A stretch of DNA of 64,000 nucleotides. It comes from Claveliimonas bilis. GTDB taxonomy: Bacteria > Bacillota > Clostridia > Lachnospirales > Lachnospiraceae. Both the position numbers and the translations under genes were made by a program. The stretch is taken from positions 2,356,001 through 2,420,000 of the forward strand of contig NZ_AP027742.1 in assembly GCF_030296775.1 (NCBI RefSeq), in the 5' to 3' direction. Shown piece after piece: positions 88-18,877 of this stretch; position 1 is the stretch's first letter; each line of letters starts with the position of its first letter. The notes under the pieces were generated by a model. That model was not told where the DNA came from. It ran no database searches and worked only from the letters and a program-made list of their open reading frames with translations.

Positions 88-130
88 AAAATACCTCAAA
101 AATTAATAAATTAAATTTCAAGGTATTCTC

Positions 131-836: not shown

Positions 837-854
837 CGTCTGCCCTCCGTTTCT

Positions 855-2481: not shown

Positions 2482-2504
2482 TCCTTACCCCCTCCTTTCA
2501 GGAT

Positions 2505-2730: not shown

Positions 2731-2737
2731 AACGTAT

Positions 2738-2786
2738 AATTAATTGCAAAAAGGCCAGCAACTCCACTCAATATCTGCAATAAATA
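2738..2786 (-). pseudogene. short remnant of a peptide ABC exporter gene
   Basis: About 50 bases match 16163-16212 in the RiPP exporter gene (core CAGCAACTCCACTCAATATC and flanks). The fragment is fused directly to the lipoprotein remnant, which is not the gene order of the intact locus, so a deletion joined them. It is further evidence for a decayed sister copy of the RiPP locus. Confidence 0.65.
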
Positions 2787-2878
2787 AATCGCATTTTCCT
2801 GTTGAAACCAAGGGATTTTTCACCTCTTCCATACGTCTGCTTATGAAAACGAGAGTTAATTATCAAGGAAGTTCACAT

Positions 2879-2942
2879 CAATATAAATGCGTCTTATGTA
2901 ATGATTTTGAAATATATTTATCGCGTAAAAACAGATATTTTA
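2879..2942. repeat. direct repeat copy B (pairs with 131-195)
   Basis: Shares the stretch TATAAATGCRTCTTATGTAATG and its continuation with 131-195, with about 5 differences in 64 bases. This copy contains the 3' end of the CPBP gene (stop at 2918). The pair brackets the ABC transporter block and lipoprotein relic. Confidence 0.7.
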
Positions 2943-3601: not shown

Positions 3602-3830
3602 CTTCTCCTCCTTCAAAAATAGGTGTGCTAACCAAAGTAGAACACCCATATAATTGATTATTCCGAGGCTCTTTGAGCCACCTGTCCGGACTTTGAGAGC
3701 TGCCATTCCGGAGAATGAAAGCCATATATTCCGGTAAGTCAGAGCCACATTAGGCTCTATTACATAGATTTCCTTTATACTGTAAGAACAACATCAGTAG
3801 ATATGAATACAGTTAAAGGAGGTCACCACT

Positions 3831-3930
3831 ATGACCAAATATCGAGAAATCCTTCGCCTGAAAAGCTTAGGATTCAGTGAACGGAACATCGCACATAGTT
3901 GCGGTGTGTCCCGTAACACAGTTACTGTTC
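3831..3930 (+). pseudogene. 5' fragment of an IS21-type istA
   Basis: ATG at 3831 after AAAGGAGGTC opens MTKYREILRLKSLGFSERN and continues as a helix-turn-helix (HSCGVSRNTVTV) typical of the IstA N-terminus. It is cut at about 3930, where sequence from an IS66 tnpC begins on the other strand. It is unrelated to the complete istA at 4898-6472, which starts differently. It is a relic of an older insertion. Confidence 0.7.
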
Positions 3931-3955
3931 GCCGGACGCCCATCCTTCGCTACTT
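3931..3955 (-). pseudogene. IS66 tnpC fragment, severed from 6681-6841 by the IS21 element
   Basis: Minus-strand reading gives KVAKDGRPA, the continuation of the ADETPVKV motif of IS66 transposases. If the IS21 element and one ACTT copy are removed, 6681 onwards joins here in frame to give ADETPVKVAKDGRPA. This proves the nested insertion. Confidence 0.8.
3952..3955. repeat. target site duplication ACTT (left) of the IS21 element
   Basis: ACTT precedes the element end TGTGC at 3956 and is repeated at 6681-6684 after GCACA. A 4-base duplication is within the range known for the IS21 family. Confidence 0.7.
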
Positions 3956-3965
3956 TGTGCAAATG

Positions 3966-4105
3966 TCAACCACTTTTTTACATTGTTAGGTAAGATGTTT
4001 TTTACACCGTATGGTAAGGAGTTTTTTACATCCCTTAGTAAGCAGATTTTTACATCGTAAGGTAAGCACTTTTTTACTTTACCCGGTAAGCAGTTTTTTA
4101 CATCC
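3966..4105. repeat. left terminal repeat array of the IS21 element
   Basis: Five to six imperfect copies of a unit like GGTAAGNAGTTTTTTACA, spaced about 27-28 bases apart. These are the presumed IstA binding sites and run up to the istB stop. Confidence 0.8.
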
Positions 4106-4901
4106 CTGTTTCTCCCTTTGGGTAAAGGTCAGGGTGCTTCAGCCGGTACGATTCCCCGCGGAAAGAGTAACACTTGGCATGGTGCAGGATCCGATCCAGC
4201 ATTGCAGTGGTAAGTACCGGATCCCCCATCATCTCAGCCCAGTCAACGATCTCTTTGTTGGTGGTAAAGATGATAGAACTGGTTTCATAGGTATCACTGA
4301 TAAATGTGAAAAATCTGTTTGCCTGTCCGCGGCTGATCGGTGTGTAGCCGATCTCATCAATTATGACAAGCTGTGCTTTCTTGATATTTTTGAGCCGGAA
4401 TCCGGCTGCACGCTCTGTCTCTGCGGTATCAAGGATCTTGATCAGACTGGTCATCTTCTCAAAACATACAGTATAGCCGCTGTTGACAGCCTGCAGACCA
4501 AGGCCACAGGCAACCATGGTCTTGCCGAGGCCCGGAGGCCCCGCAAAGACAAGGTTTCCGCAGTTGTCCAGCCAGGACAGTTCTTTCAAAACGGAGAGCT
4601 GTGCGTGGGTGATACCTGACTCCAGCTCTTCCGGATCAAACTCTTCCAGCGGCCGGATATTTGGTGGAAAATGCGCCGCGGAATAGTTACGCTTCCGACG
4701 CCGTTCATTCCGCCCTTTGACTTCGGTCTCAAGAACGGCCAGAAGAAATTCCCTGCAGGAGGAGTCCTGCAGATCCGCAGTTTCCAGAAGATCCGGAAGC
4801 ATGCGCGCCGCGTGCTTTAAGGTAAATGTTTCGAGCAACGCTGTGAGCCGCTGTACAGGGATATGGCCGGTATCCATACTTTTTAAGATTTCACGGTTCA
4901 T
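4098..4901 (-). CDS. istB: IS21 helper ATPase IstB
   Basis: 267-residue AAA+ ATPase of the DnaC/IstB type that assists the IstA transposase in choosing and engaging target DNA. Walker A is GPPGLGKT (about residues 122-129) and Walker B is LVIIDEIGY. Length and domain layout are normal for the family. Its start overlaps the istA stop in an ATGA, giving translational coupling. The stop lies within the left terminal repeat array. Confidence 0.95.
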   Translation of the reverse strand: MNREILKSMDTGHIPVQRLTALLETFTLKHAARMLPDLLETADLQDSSCREFLLAVLETEVKGRNERRRKRNYSAAHFPPNIRPLEEFDPEELESGITHAQLSVLKELSWLDNCGNLVFAGPPGLGKTMVACGLGLQAVNSGYTVCFEKMTSLIKILDTAETERAAGFRLKNIKKAQLVIIDEIGYTPISRGQANRFFTFISDTYETSSIIFTTNKEIVDWAEMMGDPVLTTAMLDRILHHAKCYSFRGESYRLKHPDLYPKGETGM

Positions 4902-6472
4902 CGAGCAGCAGCCTCCTTCCTTTCTGTGCGTTCCTGAAAGGCTTTTGCATAAACAGAAAGATCCGTGTAGCTGACACTGCCGGATGGAACCTGGGCACGG
5001 CAGTCGTCTGTGGTCAGTTCCCGGCCGGCTTTTGCAAGACTGTAAACAACTTTAAACTGTGAGAACTGATACCGGTATTTCTGGCAGCATTCCTTCATCA
5101 CCTGCGCTACCAGGGATTTATCCGGATTCTCAGAATCAAGGAACTGTTCAATTGCCCGAAGCTGTTTGGAGATATGCCGTGGATTTTCCTTTTTCACACC
5201 ATTGATGAAGTGCTGGAAGTCATAGCAGTTCCATTTCCCACGGAGACGCTCCATGATCTCGATCCAGTCTCCGGAGTCCTGTTTCCGGTGTTCCGGGAGC
5301 TGATTAACACTTCCCTTCCTCTCGCTGAGATTATGGGAACAGATATAGTTCAGCTGGTCATCATAAATGTGGATCTTCCCACTGACAACTTTGAACTGTA
5401 CCGTTTTGAAAGCATAATCACGTGGAACCGAATACCTGCATGATTTATACAGGACGTAAGGTATTGCCGCGATTTCATAAGTGCGGAATGTATTCGGAGA
5501 TGTTTCATACACGGATGGAAGAAGAGGCCGCATGGCTGACCTTTCAATGCTGTCGTAGACTGCTTTTGGGACCCGTAAGGTAGAACGGTGGATCCGCTGG
5601 TTCTTGCGTTCCAGCCATCCGGGCAGGGAACGCCATACATCATCGATACAGGTGACCTTCCGCGCACTGAAGAAGTTTTTCTTCACGAACCCGACAGAGT
5701 TTTCGATAGGTCCCTTGCTTTCCGGATCCGCTTTATTACACACCCAGAGCCGGATATCCTGTTCAGTACAGAAATCTTCAAAGGTCCTGGTCTTGATGAC
5801 TTCACCATAGGTTTCACTGGCGACAAACACGGCGTCCTGGTCAATGACCAGTTCTTTAGGACGCCCTCCAAGCCTGCAGAAACTACGGTAGATCGCCTTA
5901 CAGGCCTCTTCCGAGTTATACTTGTGATCCTGTGCATAGACGCATAAAAAACGGCTATAACGCAGCAAAAGGCACATGAAATGGATATGCGTTGTTTTTG
6001 AGAGAGTCTCCTCACCGAAGTCAATCAGCATCTGTTCTCCGGGCGGGGTGTCAAAAACATAATCATAGATACGGCGGTGCTCAGGCTCCCTGTTGATCTG
6101 TCCGGAATCCTCAAGATAATGGATGTAGTTCCGGAGCGTCTGTTGGTTCCCGGGAAGTTTCTCATAGTCTCCGTTTTCGATGAATTTTTCTTCCAGAACA
6201 TCGTAAACTGATGACATACAGAACGTTTTTCCGCTGTTTGTTTCAAGGATCCTGATAATCGTACTGCGGAAAGGTTCCGCATCAAAGGTTTTCGGTTTTG
6301 CGAGCTTAGCGCCGGGATCATCCGGGAGCACATCCATGTCATAATACTTGCTGATTGTGGGCCGGCTGGGAGGCTTGCGTCCCTGCGCTTCATAGTATCT
6401 GATAATATCAGCTTTTGTGTAACCTTGCAGTTTTAAATCCTGTATTTCCTGCATTTTTGTTTTTGTCAGCAT
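4898..6472 (-). CDS. istA: IS21 transposase IstA
   Basis: 524-residue DDE transposase. The N-terminus has a helix-turn-helix (about residues 5-45, YTKADIIRYYEAQGRKPP...). An rve integrase core lies around 140-300 with DFGEE (first Asp), IDQDAVF (second Asp) and the ENSVGFVKKNFF segment carrying the Glu. The length is usual for IstA. It starts 208 bases inside the right end of the element and overlaps istB by 4 bases. It appears intact. Confidence 0.95.
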   Translation of the reverse strand: MLTKTKMQEIQDLKLQGYTKADIIRYYEAQGRKPPSRPTISKYYDMDVLPDDPGAKLAKPKTFDAEPFRSTIIRILETNSGKTFCMSSVYDVLEEKFIENGDYEKLPGNQQTLRNYIHYLEDSGQINREPEHRRIYDYVFDTPPGEQMLIDFGEETLSKTTHIHFMCLLLRYSRFLCVYAQDHKYNSEEACKAIYRSFCRLGGRPKELVIDQDAVFVASETYGEVIKTRTFEDFCTEQDIRLWVCNKADPESKGPIENSVGFVKKNFFSARKVTCIDDVWRSLPGWLERKNQRIHRSTLRVPKAVYDSIERSAMRPLLPSVYETSPNTFRTYEIAAIPYVLYKSCRYSVPRDYAFKTVQFKVVSGKIHIYDDQLNYICSHNLSERKGSVNQLPEHRKQDSGDWIEIMERLRGKWNCYDFQHFINGVKKENPRHISKQLRAIEQFLDSENPDKSLVAQVMKECCQKYRYQFSQFKVVYSLAKAGRELTTDDCRAQVPSGSVSYTDLSVYAKAFQERTERKEAAAR

Positions 6473-6548
6473 AAAGGTCTCCTCTCTTGTGTACTGCTTA
6501 CAGTATACAAAATCGGATGAACTGCTGACTCCTCCTGTGATAAAACTC

Positions 6549-6675
6549 GCCGCAGAGGATGTAAAAAAGTTCTTACCGGACGGTGTAAAGAACTTCTTAC
6601 CAACTCATGTAAAAAACTCCTTACCGCGTCATGTAAAAAACTCCTTACCCTGTGGCTGTAAAATCACCTTACCAC
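6549..6675. repeat. right terminal repeat array of the IS21 element
   Basis: Five imperfect copies of TGTAAAAAANTCCTTACC, inverted relative to the left array, upstream of istA. Confidence 0.8.
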
Positions 6676-6680
6676 GCACA

Positions 6681-6841
6681 ACTTTGACTGGAGTCTCATC
6701 GGCCTGCAGCACATGGAAGCGGTACATCCTGTTATGAAGGTAATCATAAAGTGCCCCCAGATACCGGTCGGCACACTGGATCACCCAGTTGGCCATCACC
6801 TGCCGGGAGATGTGGAGTACTCTTAATTGAATGAATTGCAT
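6681..6841 (-). pseudogene. IS66 transposase TnpC core fragment
   Basis: Encodes SRQVMANWVIQCADRYLG followed by HVLQADETPVKV, the signature region of the IS66 DDE transposase. It is cut by the IS21 element after ...VKV, and upstream sequence fitting TnpC is missing. Confidence 0.85.
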
Positions 6842-6925
6842 GAGACCCGGATGTGGATAACTTCCACTGTATCTGCGAGGGCGAACCGGAAAAGATTTTT
6901 AAATTTCTCTGTTTTGCACAACGTA

Positions 6926-7095
6926 TCACAGGAGATTGCTGGGCTGCACTTCCTGGATCGGATGTCTGGATACGATCTCCAGCCCCTGCATCAGCGCCCG
7001 GTATTGTTCCGGCGTGATCTCCAGAGCCTCTTCTTTTGTACGGGACCAGCTGAAGCCGCCCTGTTTTAGCCTTTTGTAAACCTTCCGGAATCCGG
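6926..7095 (-). pseudogene. IS66 accessory protein TnpB, C-terminal fragment
   Basis: The minus-strand frame ending at TGA 6926-6928 reads RFPSGFRKVYKRLKQGGFSW, then RTKEEALEITPEQYRALMQG and ends in QPSNLL-stop, the normal C-terminus of the IS66 TnpB (Orf2) protein. The N-terminal half is absent and the piece is joined out of frame to tnpA. Confidence 0.8.
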
Positions 7096-7449
7096 ATGGA
7101 AAACGGATGATGCATCTGGTAACACAGCAGGAAGTTTGATCTCAGCGAAAGATACGGACTGCTGAACAGTAGATAACTGTCCCGTCTCTATAACTGCGGA
7201 CAGAGACGGATTTTGAGATGCTTCATAAGCTTCCCAGCGCAGGATGCGCTGCCAGTAAAAGAACTGTTTTCCAGAGATTCCGTTTGCCCGGCAGCAGGCG
7301 GTCTTTGGCATCCCGCTGTTCATACATTCATTCAGGATCTTGGTCCAGTGCTCTGCACGGACCTGATGTGTGATTTTATCTATGGCACTAACTCCTTTAA
7401 AAAACTTGTAGTTTTCTGGAGTTATTATCTCATGAGACAAGGAAACTAG
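7066..7449 (-). pseudogene. IS66 accessory protein TnpA, fused remnant
   Basis: The segment RAEHWTKILNECMNSGMPKT and FFYWQRILRWEAYE is the helix-turn-helix region of IS66 TnpA (Orf1). The tail (HPDSGRFTKG) is tnpB sequence read in the wrong frame, so the gene lost its own C-terminus by an internal deletion. Confidence 0.75.
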
Positions 7450-7517
7450 CACGGTACTAGTGATTTACCATATACAAACAAATTACTACATAATAATGAA
7501 TTAAACATATTATTGCT

Positions 7518-7556
7518 TTTCAGGCAAAGAAAACAATATGTTTTCTTTGCCTGAAA
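7518..7556. terminator. perfect hairpin downstream of the RiPP precursor
   Basis: Arms TTTCAGGCAAAGAAAACA at 7518-7535 and the exact complement at 7539-7556, with a 3-base loop, 63 bases after the precursor stop. No long T-run follows on the minus strand. It may act as a transcript end stabiliser or a weak terminator of the RiPP operon. Confidence 0.6.
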
Positions 7557-7618
7557 TTAATTAATTAAACATTCTAATATTACAACAAAAATATACTTTT
7601 AGCGCAGAAATAGAAAAA

Positions 7619-7798
7619 TCATGCTGTAATATTTCTGTCAATATTAGACTTCATGTTTTCACGTAAACTTTCTTTTGCAAGAGCCCACGGATATCCTCCC
7701 GGACCACAATAACAATCGCAATTGATATCACATACGCAATTCTTATACTGCTCTAATGTATTACGATTTTCTTGAATTCTTTTATTTAGTTTCTTCAT
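7619..7798 (-). CDS. Cys-rich RiPP precursor peptide (CLI_3235-class bacteriocin-like)
   Basis: 59-residue peptide, start ATG 7798 after AGGAGG (8-base spacing), stop at 7619. An N-terminal leader rich in K, N, R and E (about residues 1-20, MKKLNKRIQENRNTLEQYKN) is followed by a core with five cysteines at 21, 23, 27, 29 and 31 (CVCDINCDCYC), then GPGGYPW and a hydrophilic tail. Size, Cys spacing and position as last gene of a minus-strand operon with a SPASM radical SAM enzyme, exporter, acyl-carrier-like protein and S8 protease fit the TIGR04065-type 'CLI_3235' Cys-rich peptides. The modified residues, cleavage site and activity are not known. It is shorter than the usual ORF cutoff. Confidence 0.85.
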   Translation of the reverse strand: MKKLNKRIQENRNTLEQYKNCVCDINCDCYCGPGGYPWALAKESLRENMKSNIDRNITA

Positions 7799-7926
7799 TT
7801 CATATTCCTCCTATTTTTATAATGAATGCCTTATTATAAATAACATTATTCAAACTTCTTTAACTCTACTCCTCCTTTCCAAGAATAATTTTATGATTGA
7901 ATAATGTCATATATAGAAACAGTACA

Positions 7927-9438
7927 TTATCCTTCTCCCTGCTTGATCGATACAAATCCTCCATCAATTGCATTTAATACGACGTTTTCTGTGCCCCATT
8001 TAAGAACCTCCCCATCTGAAGTTAATCCTGTCTTTTCTAAATTGAAAACCCACACAGGAACCAACCATACTTTTTCAGGTTCTTCAAATGCATTAATGTT
8101 GGCCGCACGAATCTGTATATTTGTAACATTATATATACATTTTGTACCAGTATCCTTCAGCTCATCTCCATCGTCAGAAAGAGCGGAATACAGCAGGTGA
8201 TCTGCCAGTTTTTCCTTTATTTCATCAAAAGAAAGTAGCTTTGTGTTATTTGCAACTGTATCTATTTTCTTTGACATATTTGTCCAAGCAAATTTTTGAA
8301 CACCATCTTTCGTGATAATGATTTGAATTTTTTCGGAAGAAAATTGTGGGGCGTATACTGTTTCTGGAATTCCTTCTAGTATTTCAGGTGACCGCTGACT
8401 ATATCCCATCAAGTCTCCCAATGTACGATAAAAATAAATTGAAAATCCAACCTCATTAAAGGGATTATCTTCGTCCCATAATACCCATGTTTCTGTATTC
8501 CTATTTCCGATTGCTTTGACACAGCTGCCTACTTCAAACCCTTTTATTGATATTTTATCGAGTAAAGCCTTCGCTTCATTCAAAGCCTCCTCTTCAGATA
8601 GAGATGGTATCTCTTCCATATGTTCTTTTAATGATTTTAGCCAAGCATCATTTTTATTATTGCTATCTAAATTTCCATGAATCAAAGGCATCAGATATTC
8701 TTCATCAATAAACGTACCCTGGGAATACAGAAAATTGGTTGTGCTTCCTAATTTATCGCTATAGCTTATCGCACGGATTAAGGGGTTCTTTTCATTTTCT
8801 TTATCTATTTTGGCTGTGAAACCTAGTTTTTCGTCTGTATCATAATAATAATCACTTACTCCATCATAGAAATCTCTTTCTGTCTGTACCGGCTCCATAA
8901 GAACAGGCTTTATAGAATTCTTTGTTCCCGCTTTTTCTGGAGCTTCATCAATAAGTTGATCCATTTTACTAAGTTGATCCTGCCAATATTGAGTTGATCC
9001 TAATCCACCAGATAACGAAGCCCAAGTCCCCTCATAATTTTCCATTCTCGCTTTTTCCGATTCTAATTCATCTTTTGTCATCTTAGGATATTCATACAAT
9101 GGATTCCCATCTGAAAAATAATCGCATAATTTCTCCAACAATTCATTGGTCAATACTGATTGTTCATAAACATCTACAGGTGTATTGTATATTTCTGGTA
9201 TCTGTGGAGAATAATCTGCTTCTAAAGTAACAAAACCATCGCTTCTTTCAATCTTTTCGTGCCAATGATCAGGAATCTGCAGATCTTTTGGTACATCGTC
9301 ATCTTTTTCCAGAATGCTTTCTTTCGGAATCCCCTCTGATCGGTCAACAACAATTTCTTCTTGTGGCGTTTTAGCACATGCCATTAATCCAGAACTTAAA
9401 CATAGCAAACAAACCAAAATATATGTTTTGTTCTTCAT
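7927..9438 (-). CDS. DUF6034-like secreted lipoprotein of the RiPP locus
   Basis: 503-residue predicted lipoprotein. A signal peptide ends in the lipobox LMAC (lipidated Cys at about residue 21), so the protein is anchored outside the membrane. The rest is hydrophilic with no catalytic motif I recognise. The start PDHWHEKIERSDGFVTLEA resembles the DUF6034 family of Clostridia; this is from memory and unconfirmed. It lies 16 bases after the S8 protease gene and is followed by the precursor. A broken copy of its 3' end lies at 2505-2730 beside an ABC efflux operon. It could be an immunity or sensing component, but nothing in the sequence decides this. Confidence 0.75.
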   Translation of the reverse strand: MKNKTYILVCLLCLSSGLMACAKTPQEEIVVDRSEGIPKESILEKDDDVPKDLQIPDHWHEKIERSDGFVTLEADYSPQIPEIYNTPVDVYEQSVLTNELLEKLCDYFSDGNPLYEYPKMTKDELESEKARMENYEGTWASLSGGLGSTQYWQDQLSKMDQLIDEAPEKAGTKNSIKPVLMEPVQTERDFYDGVSDYYYDTDEKLGFTAKIDKENEKNPLIRAISYSDKLGSTTNFLYSQGTFIDEEYLMPLIHGNLDSNNKNDAWLKSLKEHMEEIPSLSEEEALNEAKALLDKISIKGFEVGSCVKAIGNRNTETWVLWDEDNPFNEVGFSIYFYRTLGDLMGYSQRSPEILEGIPETVYAPQFSSEKIQIIITKDGVQKFAWTNMSKKIDTVANNTKLLSFDEIKEKLADHLLYSALSDDGDELKDTGTKCIYNVTNIQIRAANINAFEEPEKVWLVPVWVFNLEKTGLTSDGEVLKWGTENVVLNAIDGGFVSIKQGEG

Positions 9439-9454
9439 TAGAAATCACCCCCTT

Positions 9455-10561
9455 CTATTCTTGTAATAATAATATCATATCTTTGCATATTGATTCTATT
9501 TCATGTTTACTATAATTGTGTATTACCTGGTTACAGACGGTTAATTTCATGCTATTTCGATACACATGTATCCAGCAACAATCAGTAGTATCTACTATAT
9601 TTGGAAATGTTAAAAGTATATTTGAATTTAATAATAAAAGATCAACATTACGATGAAATGAAATATTTATTTGTTGTTCGAAGTTTTGTTTATTATAATT
9701 TATAATTCTAAAATCATCGCTTGAAGAATTATTGTCTGTAATACATACACATTCATAACCAAATATTTTAGTAAGACAATTTAAAACATTAGAAAATATT
9801 GAAATATCATCTGATTCTATTAAAATAATTGGTGGATTGATAATTTTTTTTGGAAGCAGTGCTTCAGACAGTACATTAATCTGGCGATCATTACAGGTTT
9901 CTCCTTGGGCAAGAAACTGATTTATTAGGTTTCTTGAACATGAAAAACTACTTTCTTCGCATAACGCATCAACTTTATTTAACAAATTTGCCAAAACACG
10001 AGGAGCTGAAAAGCTATTTCCTATATTTGAATCCAAAACTGTCCCACAATCCACATGAAGATCATTATCTGGAATAGCATAGATTTTTTGACAACAAAAA
10101 TGTTCTACAGGTAATGCTATAGTTCCGATCACTTCTTGAAACGCTGCCGGCATAGTAATAAGATTAGCATTACTGCTTGCAGCTATTATAGTAATTCCAC
10201 TGTCATACATTTTTTTAATCAAAGGATATATTTCTTTTTGTTTTGATAATATCGTTGTGCCAATGCTCAAACATAATACATCAATTTGATTAGAAAAAAG
10301 AAATTCTAATGCAATTATGAAATCGTTAATATCTAATTGATTTTTATTCATAATATCAACATGTATTAAAACGTGGTTCTTAGGATTTCTTAAGTTATCG
10401 TTCAAAATCTTGCAGCATAATGTACTATGAGTAGAATTAACTATATCGTTTGTTTGGCATACCGTTTTTACTTGACATTTCGTTATTTTATACTTATGTA
10501 TCTGAGAAAAATCAAGCATTACATTATTATCTAAAGAATCGTCAATTATTCCTATTTTCAT
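9455..10561 (-). CDS. subtilisin-like (S8) peptidase of the RiPP locus
   Basis: 368-residue protein without a signal peptide, so probably cytoplasmic. The subtilase triad is recognisable: Asp7 in IGIIDDS, His45 in STHSTLCCKIL, oxyanion Asn131 in IAASSNAN and Ser183 in GNSFSAP. The catalytic domain covers about 1-200. The remaining ~170 residues are of unknown fold. ATG 10561 was chosen; an in-frame TTG at 10570 is close to GAGGCG and is an alternative. Either start overlaps the ACP-like gene. The ABC exporter lacks a C39 peptidase domain, so this protease is the natural candidate for leader removal, by inference from context. It may instead be a degenerate subtilase. Confidence 0.8.
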   Translation of the reverse strand: MKIGIIDDSLDNNVMLDFSQIHKYKITKCQVKTVCQTNDIVNSTHSTLCCKILNDNLRNPKNHVLIHVDIMNKNQLDINDFIIALEFLFSNQIDVLCLSIGTTILSKQKEIYPLIKKMYDSGITIIAASSNANLITMPAAFQEVIGTIALPVEHFCCQKIYAIPDNDLHVDCGTVLDSNIGNSFSAPRVLANLLNKVDALCEESSFSCSRNLINQFLAQGETCNDRQINVLSEALLPKKIINPPIILIESDDISIFSNVLNCLTKIFGYECVCITDNNSSSDDFRIINYNKQNFEQQINISFHRNVDLLLLNSNILLTFPNIVDTTDCCWIHVYRNSMKLTVCNQVIHNYSKHEIESICKDMILLLQE

Positions 10562-10808
10562 TAATGCCAATCGCCTCTATTTCTGCCGCCAAATTGTTAA
10601 CAGTAAATATTGGGCTATCATTCGTTTCTAAAATTCTGCAAATATTAATTCCATATTTAGTTTCAAGCGTATTAATTAAATATAAGAAATCAACGGTATC
10701 TATTCCAAACTTTTGATCAAGCAAATTATCATTTAAATCTGAAATAGTAATATCAAAAAGAGCACTAATTTCCTCTAACAACATTTTTTTAGCAATATCT
10801 TTTGTCAT
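10542..10808 (-). CDS. acyl carrier-related protein of the peptide maturation system
   Basis: 88-residue protein with the four-helix pattern of acyl carrier proteins. At the usual phosphopantetheine site, where ACPs have DSL, it has DTV (FGIDTVDFLYLI, Thr at about residue 38). The attachment serine is therefore missing and standard loading is unlikely. This fits the family of 'peptide maturation system acyl carrier-related proteins' (TIGR04069-type) seen next to CcpM-type radical SAM enzymes. It overlaps the protease gene and follows the TIGR04066-like gene by 33 bases. Its partner may be that protein or the maturase. Confidence 0.82.
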   Translation of the reverse strand: MTKDIAKKMLLEEISALFDITISDLNDNLLDQKFGIDTVDFLYLINTLETKYGINICRILETNDSPIFTVNNLAAEIEAIGINENRNN

Positions 10809-10841
10809 ATATATACCCCCTGTATATTTTTTACAAATGAT

Positions 10842-11906
10842 CTAAATTATCTCAGGATTTTCATTTAAAAGGGAAGTTAATTCATCTATGAATGTTTCAA
10901 TCCCTTTTTTATCGTCTGGAAGTAAGACAATATTGCTGTTCACAATTTCTGTTGGCAAATTTTCTTTACAAAACTTGTTAGAATAGAAATTATATTCTAC
11001 TTTTTCTTCCTCGGTATTTACATTATAAGTTTGATTACAGATATAGAATTTAATAATATCCACGCCCAATCGTAACTTACACAACTTTTTCATTTCATCA
11101 AAATATTTATCCGTATAGTATTTACTATAATGTATACAGAGAACACCATAATCACTTATTATTGCATTAGATAAAACATATGAAATTTCTCCAAAATAAT
11201 TGTGTTCATAATCATTTAATGTCATTATCCCACTAGGGCAACTAATCAGTATTATGTCAGGAAGTTTTTGCTCAGCTAAGTCACAAATAAAACTATTGGC
11301 TCGTTTAACTTTTAGAGGCAGAGATATATCATCCGCATATAAAAAATCAGGTAATACGTCACAATTAAATAACCTTGCAAGTGGATTCCCAGAAATTACT
11401 AAAACGCTATATCCTTTATCCTCTAAAACTTTTTTTACTGATAATATCAAAGAAAACTTATCACAATTTTCACCATCTCCTAATATAGAGATAACTGGGC
11501 ATGTCACTTTTCGTAATTTTTTTGACGAAGTACAAATTCTATTGTTATAGCTATTTAGAATTGTTGTCTCAGCATCTTTAAATACTTCAACTCCCAGCCA
11601 TTTATAGATAAAGCTGCTAGTGTATATTGGTATATTTTTTCGAATGGCTTCATTAATTCGATTAATATATGCTTTTTTGCCCATTTTTTGCACATTATCA
11701 CATAAAATCAAGACATCGCAATCCATAAGGGCTTTTTCGGAATCATTTGTGTAAATGCTATTTTTTTGAACTTCTATTTCATTTTCTTTATATGTAACTA
11801 TAAAACTTATTTCATATTTTTTTAATTCCTTGGAGTGTTCATAGATTACATTCGACTCATAATTTGCAGGGAACAATACAATTTTTCTCTTACTATTCTC
11901 ACTCAT
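10842..11906 (-). CDS. TIGR04066-like peptide maturation system protein
   Basis: 354-residue cytoplasmic protein starting MSENSKRKIVLFPANYESN. It has alternating Rossmann-like segments (for example VTCPVISILGDGENCDKFSL near 165 and DIILISCPSGIM near 235), consistent with a nucleotide-binding fold, but no catalytic motif that I can name. It matches the 'peptide maturation system protein, TIGR04066 family' found in clostridial CLI_3235 loci. ATG 11906 has GGAGG six bases upstream. Before the IS4-family insertion the radical SAM frame ended at 11899, overlapping this start by 8 bases, so the two were coupled. The insertion now separates this gene from its promoter. Confidence 0.78.
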   Translation of the reverse strand: MSENSKRKIVLFPANYESNVIYEHSKELKKYEISFIVTYKENEIEVQKNSIYTNDSEKALMDCDVLILCDNVQKMGKKAYINRINEAIRKNIPIYTSSFIYKWLGVEVFKDAETTILNSYNNRICTSSKKLRKVTCPVISILGDGENCDKFSLILSVKKVLEDKGYSVLVISGNPLARLFNCDVLPDFLYADDISLPLKVKRANSFICDLAEQKLPDIILISCPSGIMTLNDYEHNYFGEISYVLSNAIISDYGVLCIHYSKYYTDKYFDEMKKLCKLRLGVDIIKFYICNQTYNVNTEEEKVEYNFYSNKFCKENLPTEIVNSNIVLLPDDKKGIETFIDELTSLLNENPEII

Positions 11907-11993
11907 CATGATCCTCCTCGTGAAAATGATATCCATTTTCTATCAAAACACATAATTCTTTTAAATTATACAAAGTATCATTTATACTCGTTT

Positions 11994-12000
11994 TACAACT
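11994..12000. repeat. target site duplication TACAACT (left) of the IS4-family element
   Basis: TACAACT at 11994-12000 is repeated at 13573-13579, immediately outside the inverted ends of the element. Confidence 0.85.
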
Positions 12001-12157
12001 CTTGAGTTTCCGCAAACTGCATTAAAAAGATAGATATGTCTTCCTAAAGTACCAATCTGCTGTTTTTTGAGAAATTTAGAATGGCAGCACCGAGAATAGA
12101 GGCACTTTTATAAGCCCCGTCGGAACCGGGCTTGGGGAGATATATTCTTTTATCTAT

Positions 12158-13411
12158 TCAAACGGTCAGCTTAAGGCAGAGTTGACGGTTCACTGGACGT
12201 TTTGTCCTGTACCAGAGCCGGATGCCCTCTTTTGCATATGACAGTATGCCGAAGATGCCTTTTGCCAACCGATAATAGCAGAAACTGACTTTCTCCTTGA
12301 TTGGATTAGCTTCCTGTATGATTGAAACTTTCAGGGGGTTTGTATCAGGACTTAATTCTTCCTGCGCTAAAAATGCCATGGCTAAAGTAATATAAAAGTT
12401 AAGCGCATTAATGGCTTCCAGTTTCCTTACACGGAAGTTTTCAAACTGATAGGTCTGCTTTTTACAACGAAAATATTCCTCGATCCGCCATCTGGAAAAG
12501 TAGGTTCTGGCAATGCGGATCACATCATCCTTTGAACGGATCTCTTTGTTTGTAGCCAGCATCATGGGATGTTCCGTGATCCCATAGACCAGGACCAGAT
12601 AGATATCCTTCCGGGAGGCAGTGATATGAACTTTTACGTGGGAAAGATATGCGGTATGTCTTTTTCCTTTATAGAAAACATCCGCTTTTACTTTTCCTTT
12701 CCTCCGGTTCCGCAGTTCCGTTGCCTTTGTCCATTTATTGTGATAAAGAAGTTTCCGGTTGGATTTCAGACGGATCACGTAATTCTGCTTCAGATGGTCG
12801 AGGACGAGAAATATCTTATTGTCATCATAACCGCGGTCCATAACAAAGGTGGCCTTCCCAAAAAGAGCAGCTGCCTGTTTGATCGCATCAAACGTGATGG
12901 TGTTTACAGATTTATAGTCCTTCTCAGCAGAAGAATGGATCATGGAAAAAACACTGACAGGATGCTTGCTGGCAGTCAGGGCACAGGCCTCTGTTACATG
13001 GTATCCTTTTTTATAAACACTTTTCGTCTGTGTGCTTTCAGAACCATCGCGAATGATACCAAGAGCTTCAAACTGTTTTCCATCTGGTTTTACGATATCA
13101 CTTTCATCAATGAGGACCACTGGTTCAGAGGGAACGCGTCTCTTTACGGTATGGAGATAAGAAGCAGCCGCAGAAGCCGGCGTTCCTTCTGAAAGATGAT
13201 TGGAAAGCCGTTTTACAGTATTGGCTTTCTGTACTGTTTCATGAAGCTGGTCGGAAATATCAGTGAGCAGGCAGCTTCTGGATGCCAGAATGCCATAAAC
13301 CATATCTGCTGTGAACTTTCGGTCTGGTTTCGAAAGTCTGCGGGAGATTTTATTAGTAAAAGTCAAAATTTTTCTTTTCAAACGATAAGTAGTTGATGTA
13401 GAATTAGCCAT
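12158..13411 (-). CDS. IS4-family DDE transposase
   Basis: 417-residue transposase that catalyses cut-and-paste movement of the element. Acidic residues occur in VLIDESDI and FVMDRGYDD. The C-terminal segment YFSRWRIEEYFRCKK fits the IS4 signature Y-2-R-3-E-6-K. The start at 13411 follows AAAGGGGA. The gene is full length and fills nearly the whole element. Its start region is in an inverted repeat that could hide the ribosome site when transcription enters from outside. Confidence 0.92.
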   Translation of the reverse strand: MANSTSTTYRLKRKILTFTNKISRRLSKPDRKFTADMVYGILASRSCLLTDISDQLHETVQKANTVKRLSNHLSEGTPASAAASYLHTVKRRVPSEPVVLIDESDIVKPDGKQFEALGIIRDGSESTQTKSVYKKGYHVTEACALTASKHPVSVFSMIHSSAEKDYKSVNTITFDAIKQAAALFGKATFVMDRGYDDNKIFLVLDHLKQNYVIRLKSNRKLLYHNKWTKATELRNRRKGKVKADVFYKGKRHTAYLSHVKVHITASRKDIYLVLVYGITEHPMMLATNKEIRSKDDVIRIARTYFSRWRIEEYFRCKKQTYQFENFRVRKLEAINALNFYITLAMAFLAQEELSPDTNPLKVSIIQEANPIKEKVSFCYYRLAKGIFGILSYAKEGIRLWYRTKRPVNRQLCLKLTV

Positions 13412-13493
13412 AAGGAATCCCCTTTCTTTTTTGTTTAGTAAAGTTTTTGTTTGGTAGCTTAATTTTACATCAAAAAGGAACAGGATTCCTTAT
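13410..13493 (-). promoter_or_regulatory. inverted repeat that can sequester the transposase start
   Basis: ATAAGGAATCC at 13410-13420 covers the spacer between ribosome site and ATG; its exact complement lies at 13483-13493. mRNA reading in from the flanking operon would contain both arms and could close the start, while a transcript begun between them would not. Such protection from read-through is known in other insertion sequences. Here it is inferred from pairing only. Confidence 0.55.
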
Positions 13494-13567
13494 ATTTTGG
13501 ACATTTTTTGAAAGTTGTGGATAACAAAACGCAGCATATTTGTCTTAGGGGATAATTCTGCGGAAAC

Positions 13568-14899
13568 TCAAGTACAACTACATAACTTTCCTTCGCATGT
13601 TAATTTATTATTTGTAGGCTCAACTTGTCCTACACACATTCTACATAAACGTAAATTCCAACATTCCAAACATTCTTTTTCTGTCAATTGACCGATGTTC
13701 AAAATATAACGCATTTTATTATAATCAAATCCCTTTTCAACACTTCCTATCTTCATTCCTTGAACATTTTCACTAACTCTTTCGCATGGATAAAAATCTC
13801 CTGAAGTGTCTACAAACAACCTTCTTACCCCAGGGATGCATGGACCACCGTGATGCATTGCTTCCAGTTCTATATAATGTTGATGAGTCTCTTTATAAAA
13901 AAGTTCTATTGCTCTATGATCTGTAATATATAAGGGGTGTATATATTTCCGATCAATTTTTCCCAATAAGTATAGCAATACCTTTAAGTGTTCATATCTG
14001 TGTGGAATCCAAAATGAATCATTTACTTTAAGTAATCCATTATTTGATACACCTGTTTCATTTAACATACTTAATCTGACTTGAATAGGATTGAATAACT
14101 TTGAATTAGCGAAATAGTCTAAAACATTTTTTAAATCCGCTTTTGGATTGATGACGGTATTATATCTTACAGTAGAAAAAAATTCTTCGTCATACTTTTT
14201 TATTTTGTTTAAATTTCGAACGATTACATCAAAAGAACCTTGCCCATTTCTAAATTTACGATTTACATCGTGTTCTTCTTTTTTGCCGTCTAAACTGATT
14301 GTAACTGCAAATTTATGTTTTGCTAAAAAGCTAATAACCTCTTCTGATAATAAAGTTCCGTTAGTAGTTATAAAAAAACTCAATTCTTTATCCTGAACTT
14401 TTCCCTCGGCATACTCTACGCATTTTTTGATGAGCGGAAACTCTAATAATGGCTCTCCTCCGTAAAAAGCAATAATTAATTTATCTGAATCTATAGAATG
14501 TTCAAAATAAAAATCTATTGCTTCCCGTGCTATCTCCCAAGACATTCTTTTGTCTGAATGTCCTCTATTATAATAATTACCCGAATATGTACAATAGAAG
14601 CATCTTAAGTTGCATTGCTGCGTCACTTGTAATATTAGTTCTTTTAATTGCTTGTTTGCATAATATTCAATATCATCGGAAGAGGGGTGAATTATTTTTT
14701 TTGTAATCTTCTTCTGCAATAATCCTTTTTGTAAATATTTGTCTAATTCCCTGCAATTATTTGGAATTTTCCCATCTCGTTCGACATTTTTTAAGATTTT
14801 GTATTCCTCAGGATTTACGCAAACTACTGAATTTGTGTGTCGATCATAGAAATAATACTTTTTTAATGTTGAAAAACATTTTATTACAATTTCTCCCAT
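13568..14899 (-). CDS. SPASM radical SAM peptide maturase (CcpM-like), C-terminally truncated
   Basis: 443 residues as it stands. The radical SAM cluster is CNLRCFYC (Cys 96, 100, 103), followed by GGEP and a TIM-barrel region. Cysteines at about 345 and 365 and the groups CLECWNLRLCRMC and CEGKLCSC form the SPASM/twitch auxiliary-cluster domain. An N-terminal domain of ~80 residues fits leader binding. The family is that of Cys-rich peptide maturases (CcpM, TIGR04068-type), so its substrate should be the peptide at 7619-7798. ATG 14899 is preferred; GTG 14905 is possible. The IS4-family insertion supplies the stop: the original frame continued 31 codons to 11899. All visible cluster cysteines remain, but activity is uncertain. 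Confidence 0.9.
   Translation of the reverse strand: MGEIVIKCFSTLKKYYFYDRHTNSVVCVNPEEYKILKNVERDGKIPNNCRELDKYLQKGLLQKKITKKIIHPSSDDIEYYANKQLKELILQVTQQCNLRCFYCTYSGNYYNRGHSDKRMSWEIAREAIDFYFEHSIDSDKLIIAFYGGEPLLEFPLIKKCVEYAEGKVQDKELSFFITTNGTLLSEEVISFLAKHKFAVTISLDGKKEEHDVNRKFRNGQGSFDVIVRNLNKIKKYDEEFFSTVRYNTVINPKADLKNVLDYFANSKLFNPIQVRLSMLNETGVSNNGLLKVNDSFWIPHRYEHLKVLLYLLGKIDRKYIHPLYITDHRAIELFYKETHQHYIELEAMHHGGPCIPGVRRLFVDTSGDFYPCERVSENVQGMKIGSVEKGFDYNKMRYILNIGQLTEKECLECWNLRLCRMCVGQVEPTNNKLTCEGKLCSCT
13573..13579. repeat. target site duplication TACAACT (right) of the IS4-family element
   Basis: Second copy of the 7-bp duplication. It lies inside codons of the radical SAM gene (AGT TGT A..). Confidence 0.85.
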
Positions 14900-14984
14900 A
14901 GACACCTTCTCCCTTCTTTATATAGATACTTTTATAATTGTTTCCATCCTTAACATATTCAACTTCTTCTAATTAATTTATTGA

Positions 14985-15332
14985 CTATTTCTTTTGGATT
15001 TTATGACATTTAATCTCATATATTTTGTCTAAATTTTCTAGATTTTCTGCTTTATGGGTAACAATTATCACAGTTTTATTATTACATTTTTGAAAAATAT
15101 AATTGTGAATAAAACTGTCATATATCCGATCTATATTTGAAGTGGCTTCATCCATTATAATAATTTTTGCATCTTTGACTATTGCTCGTATGAAGGCAAC
15201 TTTTTGACGCTCCCCGCCGGATAAATTTCCTCCGTTTCTATCAAGTATCGTATTCAATCCTTGTGGCAAACTTTGAATAAACTTTTCTAACTTTAATTCT
15301 TCTATTATTTGCCAGAGTTGACTATCAGTCAT
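14985..15332 (-). CDS. C-terminal part of the RiPP ABC exporter ATPase (split gene)
   Basis: 115 residues holding the rest of the nucleotide-binding domain: signature LSGGERQ, Walker B IIIMDEATS and the H-loop VTHK. It starts at an ATG that overlaps the stop of the upstream part in ATGA, directly after seven A residues. Alone it lacks Walker A and cannot be an ATPase. It could work as a separately translated half, or be joined to the first part by -1 slippage on the A7 run (GGA AAA AAA TGA becoming GGA AAA AAA ATG). A simple inactivating one-base deletion, or a sequencing error in the homopolymer, is also possible. Confidence 0.85.
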   Translation of the reverse strand: MTDSQLWQIIEELKLEKFIQSLPQGLNTILDRNGGNLSGGERQKVAFIRAIVKDAKIIIMDEATSNIDRIYDSFIHNYIFQKCNNKTVIIVTHKAENLENLDKIYEIKCHKIQKK

Positions 15333-16594
15333 TTTTTTCCTAAAAGAATATTATTTCGCAAAGTATCTCTGAATAAATATATGTCTTGACTTATAACACT
15401 AAATAATTGACGATAACAATTAAGTTTTACTTCTCCAATATCAACGCCATCTATTAAAATTTGTCCCTTTTGTGGATGATAAAATTGTAATAGAAGTTGA
15501 ATTAAGGTTGATTTACCTGAACCATTATCTCCTATAAGGGCTATTCTTTCACCTTTCTTAATTGTTAATGAAATATCATTTAAAACAGGATGATTTTTAT
15601 CATAATAAAAACTAACATTATTAAAAATGATTTCTTTATCAAAATTTTTTATTTCACGATATCCGCTTAATGTTTGCTCGTTTTCCAGTTTTTTTAATTT
15701 TTGCAACCTTTTGATAGATGGTTTTATTTGTGCAAGCAAGAATTTCAAATTAAAAATCAAAGCTATAGGACCAATTACATAAGAACTGTATGTAATAAAT
15801 GCAGTTAAACTACCTACGGTCATTTCGTTGATACAAACAAAATAACCTCCTACGCCATAAAGGAATCCAGTGATAATCCATTGCAACAAAGTATCTCCTG
15901 CCAAATTAAATGAATTTAAGAGATTACCTTCTTTGAGAAACTTGAGATTATATTTTTGATATTTTATCAATTCTTTTTTCTTTATTTTAAATAAATTCCA
16001 TAATTTAATTTCAGCAATTCCATTTAATGTATCATCAAACCATCCGGAAAAATCGGAATAATATTTTAAAATACATTCTGTGTTTTGCTCTCTTTTATTT
16101 GAAAAAAAAGTAATTAAACAAAATTTTATTGGTACTGCAAGAAGAACAAAGATAGCAAGTTTCCAATTAATTACAAATAATCCAGCAACTCCACTCAATA
16201 TCTGCAATAAATAGCTTACTGTATTTATCAAGCCACTATTAAATAACGAACTAATATTGTCTATATCTGATGTAATTCTGTTAATAATTTCAGAAGAATT
16301 ATTATTTTTAAAATAAGCCACTTTAAGATTCAATAAATAGCTAAAATATTTGTAATACAGCCTTAATACAATCCAATTTTGTATATTTACATAAACCGAA
16401 GTTTGTAAAATACTAATCCCAGATTCTATAATAGATAATCCAACTAGTATAATAGAACATACTATTACGACACTAAAAGTTTTTCCTACTAATCCAGTAT
16501 CAACAATTTTCTGAATAACTAATGGACGGCCAAATGCAATAATTACTGTGATTACATAACAAAAAAATATCTCTATAATCCATCTCTTTTTCAT
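15329..16594 (-). CDS. RiPP ABC exporter, membrane domain and N-terminal ATPase part (split gene)
   Basis: 421 residues: six membrane helices of the ABC exporter type-1 fold (about 1-285) and the first part of the nucleotide-binding domain, with Walker A GDNGSGKS and a Q-loop (VISQDIYLF). There is no N-terminal C39 peptidase, so leader cleavage must be done elsewhere, probably by the S8 protein. The frame stops at TGA right after an A7 tract, just where the ATPase should continue. It is the first gene of the RiPP operon, about 90 bases downstream of a good promoter. Expected role: export of the matured peptide, possibly also self-protection. Confidence 0.88.
   Translation of the reverse strand: MKKRWIIEIFFCYVITVIIAFGRPLVIQKIVDTGLVGKTFSVVIVCSIILVGLSIIESGISILQTSVYVNIQNWIVLRLYYKYFSYLLNLKVAYFKNNNSSEIINRITSDIDNISSLFNSGLINTVSYLLQILSGVAGLFVINWKLAIFVLLAVPIKFCLITFFSNKREQNTECILKYYSDFSGWFDDTLNGIAEIKLWNLFKIKKKELIKYQKYNLKFLKEGNLLNSFNLAGDTLLQWIITGFLYGVGGYFVCINEMTVGSLTAFITYSSYVIGPIALIFNLKFLLAQIKPSIKRLQKLKKLENEQTLSGYREIKNFDKEIIFNNVSFYYDKNHPVLNDISLTIKKGERIALIGDNGSGKSTLIQLLLQFYHPQKGQILIDGVDIGEVKLNCYRQLFSVISQDIYLFRDTLRNNILLGKK
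15332..15338 (-). other. A7 tract at the exporter frame break
   Basis: The minus strand reads GGAAAAAAATGA. The upstream frame ends at TGA and the downstream frame starts at the overlapping ATG. One extra A, or a -1 slip, gives a single 535-residue exporter. Confidence 0.75.
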
Positions 16595-16683
16595 ATGATA
16601 CGCCTTACACGATTTTTATTACGATTGTTGTTGAGTAATCCACTTATAACCTTGTCATCTATGCGATAATTTATTTTTAATAT

Positions 16684-16712
16684 ATTATATAATATCAAGT
16701 CATTATTTTCAA
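16684..16712 (-). promoter_or_regulatory. sigma-70 type promoter of the RiPP operon
   Basis: On the minus strand, TTGAAA (16712-16707), 17 bases, TATAAT (16689-16684). It lies about 90 bases upstream of the exporter start. The surroundings are very A+T rich, but both boxes and spacing are near consensus. Confidence 0.6.
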
Positions 16713-16990
16713 TATATTTTTAACATATTAAATTATATACTAATAATAAATTAAATCAATTGAATTTTACACATTATATTCAAATTTAAATTAATATTAA
16801 AGGAAATATCGAAATTTAATTTACTGCTTTAGATTGCTAAGGTTTTCAGCACAAAATTATTAAAGATTACGGAAATAAAGCAATAAGATGTTATTATTGA
16901 TTATTCAATATTTTTATATTATTAAATAGTGAAATATAAATAATAATGTGTTATTATAATAATATATAACGGTTGCAAAGGAGGATAAAA
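16713..16990. promoter_or_regulatory. A+T-rich divergent control region with dyad at 16940-16957
   Basis: The gap between the RiPP operon (minus) and the BlaI operon (plus) holds no gene. A dyad ATAATAA-TGTG-TTATTAT at 16940-16957 lies just upstream of the blaI-like ribosome site (AAAGGAGG, 16977-16984). It is a candidate operator for autoregulation by the BlaI-type protein. Low complexity makes chance occurrence possible. Confidence 0.35.
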
Positions 16991-17365
16991 ATGATTAAGT
17001 TAACACGAAGGCAGGAAGATATCATGAAAATATTGTGGGAATCGGACAAACCATTAATTGCATCAGAAATCGAAAAAAAGCAGGATGATCTTAATATTAA
17101 TACTGTCCAGGCTACGCTCCGAGCTCTTATGAAGAAAAATGCCATTGAAGTTGCAGACATTGTTTATAGTGGAACTGTATTGTCCAGAAGCTATAGGCCA
17201 ATTATAAGTCGGGATCAGGTTATCACAGAATATGATCAGGTAGTTAGTAAGGTATTAAATGATAAGAACCTGATTGCACATTATGTGGATGAAATTAACG
17301 ATCTGGCTGCTATTACAGAATTAGAAAAAATAATCAAAGAAAAAAGGAAAAAATTGGAGAAATAA
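16991..17365 (+). CDS. BlaI/MecI-family transcriptional repressor
   Basis: 124-residue winged-helix repressor. The N-terminal part (ITKLTRRQEDIMKILW-like start, then NTVQATLRALMKK) is the BlaI/MecI DNA-binding domain, and the C-terminal helices serve dimerisation. Such repressors are inactivated when a partner M56 membrane peptidase senses a signal and triggers cleavage. ATG 16991 follows AAAGGAGGATAAAA. The M56 gene begins 4 bases after its stop, so they form an operon. With no beta-lactamase nearby, the target is more likely its own operon with the small secreted protein, and perhaps the divergent RiPP operon. Confidence 0.88.
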   Translation: MIKLTRRQEDIMKILWESDKPLIASEIEKKQDDLNINTVQATLRALMKKNAIEVADIVYSGTVLSRSYRPIISRDQVITEYDQVVSKVLNDKNLIAHYVDEINDLAAITELEKIIKEKRKKLEK

Positions 17366-17368
17366 TAT

Positions 17369-18514
17369 ATGCGCTTAGTTTCTTTTGGATCCCTTTTGAT
17401 ATGTTTTTTGTCAATTATTGTTCTGACTATATATATGTATTTAACTTTAAACAGGGCAAAAGGCATTTTGATCTGTTACCTAAAACCTATATTTGTTTTG
17501 TCAGCCATTATTATGCTTCGAATGCTGATACCTGTTAATTTTCCATTTACCTATTCCTTTCGCGGAGCAAAAATCATGAATGCTGTAGGGAATATTGTAT
17601 ACATTAAAATAACCGAAACTGTAAATATTTTTGATATAATGCTGGGCATTTGGTTCATAGGAGCAGTCATCCAGATTATTCGTTATATACTAAAAAGAAA
17701 AAAAGTATATACCTATATTACCCCCTATATCCTGTCAGCAGAAGAAGTAAAAGAATCTGAATATTATTATTTGTTAAATACATATAAACAAAGCAAAATG
17801 CAAGTAGCTTGTGTACCAGAAAATGTTAGTCCTTCTATCTTTGGTATCTTTCATCCAATTATTATTTTTCCACAAAATATTGTTTCTTCAAAGGACTTAC
17901 ATTTTATTTTATCACATGAAATACAACATTATCGTAACTTTGATTTACATTTAAAAGTTATACTTGATTTATTAGTTGCAGTGCATTGGTGGAATCCTTT
18001 TGTATATATGCTAAGAAAGAAATATAATAGTGCAATAGAATTTTCAAATGACTATATGGTATCCAGGCAATTAAATGAAACTGAAAAAATAGAATATGCA
18101 GAATCACTTCTGAATATTGCAAAGATACCATTTTCAGACAAATCCTTCGACCTTTCATTAGTTGAGAACGCTAATTTTAAAAAAAGAATCTCTCTGCTTG
18201 TAGAAAATGCTAATGTTGCTAACAGCAGGAAAATGGTCACCTTGATTTTAAATATTATGTTTATTTCAATAATAATGTTTATTTCTTTGTTTTTTGTTCC
18301 AGAGGCAGATTACAGTAAAGAAGCAGAGGAAGTTTTTAAAGAAGCAGGCGCATTCAGTATTACTCCAGATAACGCTTATATAGTAACTGCCATTGATGGT
18401 TATAAATTATATATGAATGGAGAATTTATCGGTACAATGACCAGTATACCGGAGGATTTAAAGGAGGTTCCAATTTATGAAGAGAAAACTATTAATCAAA
18501 AGTCTGGTGACTAA
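17369..18514 (+). CDS. M56 family (BlaR1-type) membrane metallopeptidase
   Basis: 381-residue membrane protein. Four or so N-terminal membrane helices carry the zinc-site motif HEIQH (LSHEIQHYRN, about residues 190-194). A further helix near 285-310 is followed by only ~70 extracellular residues. It lacks the penicillin-binding sensor domain of true BlaR1, so its signal differs from beta-lactams. It is expected to pass an outside signal to the BlaI-type repressor encoded 4 bases upstream. The last 38 bases overlap the next gene in another frame. Confidence 0.88.
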   Translation: MRLVSFGSLLICFLSIIVLTIYMYLTLNRAKGILICYLKPIFVLSAIIMLRMLIPVNFPFTYSFRGAKIMNAVGNIVYIKITETVNIFDIMLGIWFIGAVIQIIRYILKRKKVYTYITPYILSAEEVKESEYYYLLNTYKQSKMQVACVPENVSPSIFGIFHPIIIFPQNIVSSKDLHFILSHEIQHYRNFDLHLKVILDLLVAVHWWNPFVYMLRKKYNSAIEFSNDYMVSRQLNETEKIEYAESLLNIAKIPFSDKSFDLSLVENANFKKRISLLVENANVANSRKMVTLILNIMFISIIMFISLFFVPEADYSKEAEEVFKEAGAFSITPDNAYIVTAIDGYKLYMNGEFIGTMTSIPEDLKEVPIYEEKTINQKSGD

Positions 18515-18716
18515 TTTGCTGGTATTAACAATGCTTTTTCCTTGTTATACAGCATATGCGCAACAACCGATTACTAATCCAATCTCAAAAGAAGAATCAC
18601 AAATAGGAAAGGCAAATAGATATGTGTGGAAGTATAAAGAGATTAACGGAAAGATTTATAAAAGATTATATGACCTTACTGAAAACAGATGGATTGGTGA
18701 CTGGATCTTAGTATAA
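18477..18716 (+). CDS. small secreted protein downstream of the M56 peptidase
   Basis: 79 residues. MKRKLLIKSLVTNLLVLTML then FPCYTAYA is a clear Sec signal peptide with cleavage expected after AYA (about residue 28). The mature ~50 residues are hydrophilic with aromatic repeats (KANRYVWKYKEINGKIYKRL) and no cysteine. GGAGG precedes the ATG, which lies inside the end of the M56 gene, so the two are translationally coupled. Function unknown. As third gene of a BlaI/M56 operon it may be the signal, a co-sensor, or a defence factor. Confidence 0.75.
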   Translation: MKRKLLIKSLVTNLLVLTMLFPCYTAYAQQPITNPISKEESQIGKANRYVWKYKEINGKIYKRLYDLTENRWIGDWILV

Positions 18717-18762
18717 TCAAATATTATATCAATCTCTCAAATGTGCGTTGTCTTTATAAATA

Positions 18763-18797
18763 GTTAGCTCCTTTCAAATAAAAAATCAGGAGCTAAC
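18763..18797. terminator. hairpin with perfect 10-bp stem after the BlaI operon
   Basis: GTTAGCTCCT (18763-18772) pairs with AGGAGCTAAC (18788-18797) across a 15-base loop. No strong T-run follows on the plus strand, so termination is only suggested by position. Confidence 0.45.
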
Positions 18798-18816
18798 AGG
18801 GTCACAACCTATAATA

Positions 18817-18860
18817 AGAGACAGGCCTCCTTTTATGCAAGCATAAGGAGTCCTGCCTCT
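18817..18860. terminator. bidirectional terminator between the BlaI operon and leuS
   Basis: Long hairpin with arms AGAGACAGGCCTCCTT and AAGGAGTCCTGCCTCT (one mismatch/bulge), loop around TTATGCAAGCAT, T-rich on the plus-strand side. It ends 18 bases before the leuS stop codon. Confidence 0.75.
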
Positions 18861-18877
18861 TCTTTTATCCGCACAGC

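Follow-up and report, generated by a model that had tools for sequence, protein, structure and literature searches.

A CLI_3235/CcpM-type peptide cluster, probably inactivated, within a recently shared block of a Claveliimonas bilis genome

Peptides of the CLI_3235 class, which belong to the ribosomally synthesised and post-translationally modified peptides (RiPPs), are encoded beside the radical S-adenosylmethionine (SAM) maturase CcpM, in a system described by the families TIGR04065, TIGR04066, TIGR04068 and TIGR04069. At least one product of the class is antimicrobial: the eight-gene SacP23 cluster of Paenibacillus polymyxa #23, when expressed in Bacillus subtilis, yields a product active against Gram-positive bacteria, with a main mass of 3404 and cross-links that were left undetermined in that study (PMC10731318). 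A sactipeptide-like cluster is also described in Roseburia intestinalis L1-82 (PMC4573289), and TIGR04065 peptides are on record in Blautia (PMC7872077). The locus considered here lies on the minus strand of a 64,000-nucleotide stretch of the gut bacterium Claveliimonas bilis, hereafter the window (NZ_AP027742.1, positions 2,356,001 to 2,420,000), and belongs to this recorded class; a further cluster comes as no surprise in a class of which one member is already known to work as an antimicrobial. With a probability of roughly three in four, we read the locus as a CLI_3235/CcpM-type RiPP cluster situated in a recently shared block and inactivated in the strain of the window, its intact form working as modelled below.

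The window locus shares with SacP23 a Cys-rich CLI_3235 precursor, an ATP-binding cassette (ABC) transporter, a subtilisin-like protease and the families TIGR04068, TIGR04066 and TIGR04069; the SacP23 cluster differs in being intact, in carrying a sigma-24 gene and 23sacG, and in having no DUF6034 lipoprotein listed (PMC10731318). TIGR04068, TIGR04066, TIGR04069, the subtilase and the ABC transporter are likewise shared with the Roseburia cluster, in which, unlike the window locus, neither an obvious structural gene nor an immunity gene was seen by its authors (PMC4573289). Compared with the CLI_3235/CcpM system in general, the window locus is set apart by an acyl carrier protein (ACP)-like protein that scores below its family cut-off, an extra DUF6034 lipoprotein, and a broken maturase and exporter. 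An earlier sequence-only reading of the stretch had treated the class as one defined in silico and lacking a known product structure; the class is indeed known and our literature search found no product structure for it, but SacP23 already provides an experimentally active member.

Assignment to the family follows from matches above the curated cut-offs for the precursor, the radical SAM enzyme and the TIGR04066 protein, in agreement with where the sequence-only reading had filed the locus; of the hidden Markov models that it had proposed for checking, only TIGR04069 (20.6 bits, cut-off 70) fell short. The five-Cys peptide of 59 residues that it had picked out is an open reading frame (ORF) at exactly 7619-7798 (minus strand), with a leader (MKKLNKRI..TLEQY) followed by the Cys block NCVCDINCDCYC and a GGAGG ribosome-binding site immediately upstream. 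This precursor matches TIGR04065 over model positions 1-34 of 34 (37.4 bits, cut-off 26), and it is the sole TIGR04065 peptide above cut-off genome-wide. Downstream of it, a perfect 14-bp hairpin (CAGGCAAAGAAAAC...GTTTTCTTTGCCTG, 7520-7553) may represent a terminator lacking a T tail; scans for promoters and terminators gave signals no better than shuffled sequence. Shortly beyond the 3′ end of the precursor gene, at 6629-7452 (minus strand), lie ORFs that by eye resemble fragments of an IS66-type element.

Scanning GTDB genomes and the Lachnospiraceae returned about 90 ccpM loci. The core set and precursor-like ORFs recur across Bacillota, Spirochaetales and Halodesulfovibrio, such that related peptides stand beside the maturase family in dozens of genomes. 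TIGR04066, ACP-like, ABC and S8 genes accompany the precursor-like ORFs at these loci in varying order; at one of them (L119, genome G101), the order ABC-CcpM-TIGR04066-ACP-S8-precursor is identical to that of the window, without the lipoprotein. The 61 non-duplicate precursor-like ORFs contain three to nine Cys, most commonly five, after a leader of the form MKKLxKK...T[VIL]xAY. In scans of IMG/VR, neither the maturase nor the lipoprotein retrieved any relative. Gene content, family membership and recurrence of the core parts are direct observations. Every gene named in the sequence-only reading is present in the minus-strand order given there; its exporter, however, is two ORFs, and an insertion sequence (IS) between the maturase and TIGR04066 genes had been overlooked. 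It had implied an intact, working locus, which is not supported: in this genome, neither the maturase gene nor the exporter gene is whole.

The radical SAM/SPASM maturase gene ccpM (13568-14905, minus strand) is truncated, and its stop codon comes from the IS. Its product matches TIGR04068 over model positions 1-440 of 462 (541 bits, cut-off 500) and is the single CcpM above that cut-off in the genome. The IS, 1572 bp long, lies inside the ccpM 3′ end (12001-13572, minus strand), encodes a DDE (IS4-like) transposase at 12158-13411 and is bounded by 14-bp perfect terminal inverted repeats. On either side of it stands a directly repeated 7-bp target duplication, TACAACT (11994-12000 and 13573-13579), the former copy being included in the severed ccpM 3′ end (11899-12000, minus strand). 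A second genome of the species (G343, locus L118) retains the uninterrupted gene: its sequence aligns to position 12000 and resumes at 13573 with one TACAACT, a clean empty site, and its CcpM ORF comprises 475 residues counted from the first start codon. Identical copies of the IS number three in the window genome and zero in G343. The truncated protein keeps the invariant CcpM cysteines, namely C98, C102 and C105 of the radical SAM CxxxCxxC motif and C412, C415, C421, C424 and C444 of the SPASM domain. After Cys444, the last of these, at least 24 residues follow in 70 of 70 relatives, versus one in the window CcpM. Loss of function is hence likely to judge from the sequence, but not proven, because the five SPASM cysteines remain.

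At GGAAAAAAATGA, the exporter gene breaks into two parts of 421 and 115 codons. Its first part (15329-16594, minus strand) encodes the transmembrane region and Walker A (PF00664 and the N-terminal half of PF00005) and ends in an early stop after a tract of seven A (at about 15332-15338); the ATPase 3′ fragment (14985-15332, minus strand) lies out of frame. In G343 the tract has eight A, giving a continuous exporter ORF of 536 residues, and the exporters of relatives are mostly one full-length ORF. No match to a C39 peptidase was found in the exporter. The insertion, the frameshift and the intact sister copy are likewise seen directly, and the locus is probably inactivated or nearly so in this genome, with the strain a likely non-producer.

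Over 7453-18946, the window genome and G343 differ by three substitutions and one insertion or deletion, versus about 1.9% divergence over the following 41 kb. The near-identical block extends leftwards to about position 1 of the window, next to ilvC, which encodes ketol-acid reductoisomerase, ends inside leuS, and is broken solely by single-nucleotide polymorphisms (SNPs) within an IS21-like element. A low-divergence block confined to the RiPP genes was considered and rejected, as the block spans from about position 1 to 18946. Homologues of the cluster genes were found beside leuS in none of three congeners examined. On these alignments, the cluster belongs to a block, at least 19 kb long, that strains of one Lachnospiraceae species have recently shared, and the near-identity of the block together with the lack of homologues in congeners places it in an exchanged island. 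Most simply, the IS and the one-base difference arose after the two copies separated. The IS21-like istB/istA pair itself (4098-6472, minus strand) carries about 80 SNPs per 2.4 kb relative to the sister strain, as if converted from another copy.

For the intact form we infer the following biochemical steps. CcpM would modify the Cys-rich part of the 59-residue precursor, probably through thioether cross-links, with the TIGR04066 and ACP-like proteins acting as its non-catalytic partners. The TIGR04066 protein (10842-11906, minus strand, the true start likely being at 11906; 215 bits, cut-off 200) is predicted to adopt a DUF1611/DgcN-like fold in which the P-loop is degenerate. Its AlphaFold model (predicted local distance difference test score 91.4) finds the DUF1611 proteins 2g0t and 2obn and the acetyltransferase DgcN (7xrj) in the PDB, with a TM score of about 0.5-0.6 over the predicted overall fold, whereas sequence identity is about 11% and the Walker A motif is degenerate, without Ser/Thr after the Lys; among 50 sequences, the Lys is present in 38, with no Ser/Thr next to it. 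The authors of the SacP23 study guessed that TIGR04066 is an immunity protein (PMC10731318). Such a role, or that of an ATPase subunit, is disfavoured by the predicted DUF1611 fold, by near-universal linkage and by a locus in Bacterium 1XD42-54 (L030, 9986-12166) in which CcpM and the TIGR04066 domain are fused in a single ORF of 726 residues.

The ACP-like protein (10542-10808, minus strand) fits the recurrent ACP-like neighbour of ccpM in size and place, even though it is under the TIGR04069 cut-off. The position of the phosphopantetheine Ser is occupied by Thr in the window protein, and among 68 relatives by Ser in five and by Pro or Ala in 50. Since this Ser is mostly absent, the protein is probably an adaptor rather than an acyl carrier.

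The adjacent subtilase-type (S8) protease (9455-10570, minus strand) has no signal peptide apparent by eye. Its best NCBIfam match is QhpE (37.9 bits, under the cut-off of 165), and its match to Pfam Peptidase_S8 is slightly under cut-off; the catalytic residues D10, H48, N134 and S186 are nevertheless invariant, and its model is similar to subtilisins, the RiPP protease PagA and the lanthipeptide protease 4zoq. Removal of the leader by this protein, as proposed in the sequence-only reading, is consistent with both observations. In a two-profile hhalign test, its C-terminal part matched TIGR04066 at 97.7% (E 2.2e-12), a result that generic Rossmann likeness could also produce. This related domain would recruit the subtilase to the CcpM complex, where it would remove the leader, and the peptidase-less ABC exporter would then ship the product out of the cell.

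The producer would be shielded by the DUF6034 lipoprotein and a nearby ABC-2-type transporter. The lipoprotein (7927-9438, minus strand; PF19499, 99.9 bits, cut-off 27), here proposed as an immunity accessory, has a lipobox Cys21 that is invariant in 20 relatives. The sequence-only reading had suspected it to be an addition to the locus, and neighbourhood comparison bears this out: it is not conserved among ccpM loci, and across the whole scan, the sole ccpM loci at which it was found are those of this species and of Blautia massiliensis GD8 (L057, 7690-15028). The Blautia locus is decayed, with a split, frameshifted CcpM, DUF6034, S8 and a truncated exporter; the precursor, TIGR04066 and ACP genes were not found at it. 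There, ccpM is immediately preceded by the ABC-2 genes and immediately followed by DUF6034. Most DUF6034 neighbourhoods retrieved have, after the DUF6034 gene, genes for a pair of homologous permeases and an ATPase, often accompanied by a response regulator and histidine kinase. The window encodes a candidate immunity transporter of two permeases and an ATPase (192-2481, minus strand), beside which is the remnant of a second DUF6034 gene (2505-2654, minus strand; a 49-residue match to a DUF6034 profile built in this analysis). Among 183 NCBIfam families, the ATPase is best matched by TIGR03740, lantibiotic protection ABC, at 190.9 bits and thus short of the cut-off of 309.75.

Given the linkage of DUF6034 to this ABC-2 module and an ATPase nearest to TIGR03740, a LanI/LanFEG-like immunity role is the best inference, with no claim of membership. 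The likeness to lantibiotic immunity consists of an ABC-2-like permease pair, an ATPase and a lipoprotein beside a peptide cluster; against this, no Pfam or NCBIfam model matched the permeases, DUF6034 is no LanI family, and the role is a predicted one. Searches of the PDB with the DUF6034 profile gave chance-level matches only, and a literature search found no mention of DUF6034. At a locus of another Lachnospiraceae genome (L180, 8194-17000; G103), six tandem DUF6034 genes occur without ABC-2 permeases alongside.

The strongest competing account takes the lipoprotein to be an accessory of general use in the envelope or in peptide sensing, which came to lie beside the precursor by chance and has no part in immunity. 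Though less favoured, it is a serious contender: DUF6034 is present in 56 of the 299 genomes sampled from the family, mostly without ccpM, two further paralogues (about 40% identical) are encoded in the window genome, and IS elements and duplications surround the locus. Against chance stand the position of the gene in the operon, between protease and precursor, and the Blautia locus, which likewise pairs ccpM with DUF6034 and ABC-2 genes.

The product of the cluster is probably antimicrobial, of the bacteriocin class, by analogy with SacP23. A signalling or metal-binding peptide with no antimicrobial action would accord with a core sequence that is highly variable across family members, but it is unlikely in view of SacP23, which has the same gene set and inhibits Gram-positive bacteria, and of the nearby transporter akin to lantibiotic-protection ABC systems.

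Several points weigh against our reading of the locus as an inactivated cluster with an immunity module. The truncated CcpM, with all five invariant SPASM cysteines, may possibly have some activity. The base missing from the A tract could be a homopolymer assembly error, a doubt of which the evidence for the IS insertion is independent, and the exporter frameshift could be bypassed right before the stop: A_AAA_AAA is a classical -1 slippery sequence which, in the seven-A form, runs directly into TGA, so that leaky -1 frameshifting may occur. Because DUF6034 is mostly found without ccpM, the immunity role here is based on association, and the ABC-2 ATPase scores under the TIGR03740 cut-off. A locus that still functions, with an active tail-less CcpM and an exporter produced through -1 frameshifting or through slippage in the transcript at the A7 tract, would fit the retained SPASM cysteines, the slippery sequence abutting TGA, the ATGA overlap and the other cluster genes, which are intact and nearly identical to those of G343, but it is the least probable alternative, set against the C-terminal tail kept in all 70 relatives compared, the mostly undivided exporters of relatives, and an IS that leaves the three maturation genes downstream of it, along with the lipoprotein and precursor genes, cut off from the sequence upstream of the exporter.

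Divergent from the exporter, a BlaI-like repressor and a BlaR1/M56-like sensor (16973-18514, plus strand; PF05569 M56, 92.9 bits, with a weak BlaI match) are possible regulators. As a generally conserved regulator the pair was rejected, an M56 neighbour occurring at few other ccpM loci. It is followed by an ORF of 79 residues with a signal-like N terminus (stretch 16973-18716, plus strand). Elsewhere in the flanks, two near-identical genes for CPBP/Rce1-like proteases (window 2918-3748 and L161:4814-5545, both minus strand) lie about 10 kb apart; CPBP/Rce1-like proteins are self-immunity proteins in some bacteriocin loci.

More broadly, and as a tentative and rather doubtful proposition, CLI_3235-class peptides may be processed by a single assembly built on DUF1611-like domains, comprising TIGR04066 bound to CcpM, a docked protease and a Ser-less ACP adaptor, with DUF6034 and ABC-2 proteins as a previously undescribed immunity module, possibly also for other antimicrobial peptides of Lachnospiraceae. 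The model offers testable roles for three unexplained partners, namely TIGR04066, the Ser-less ACP and the DUF6034 lipoprotein, and the natural occurrence of one broken and one intact copy within a single species would allow a clean comparison of producer and non-producer.

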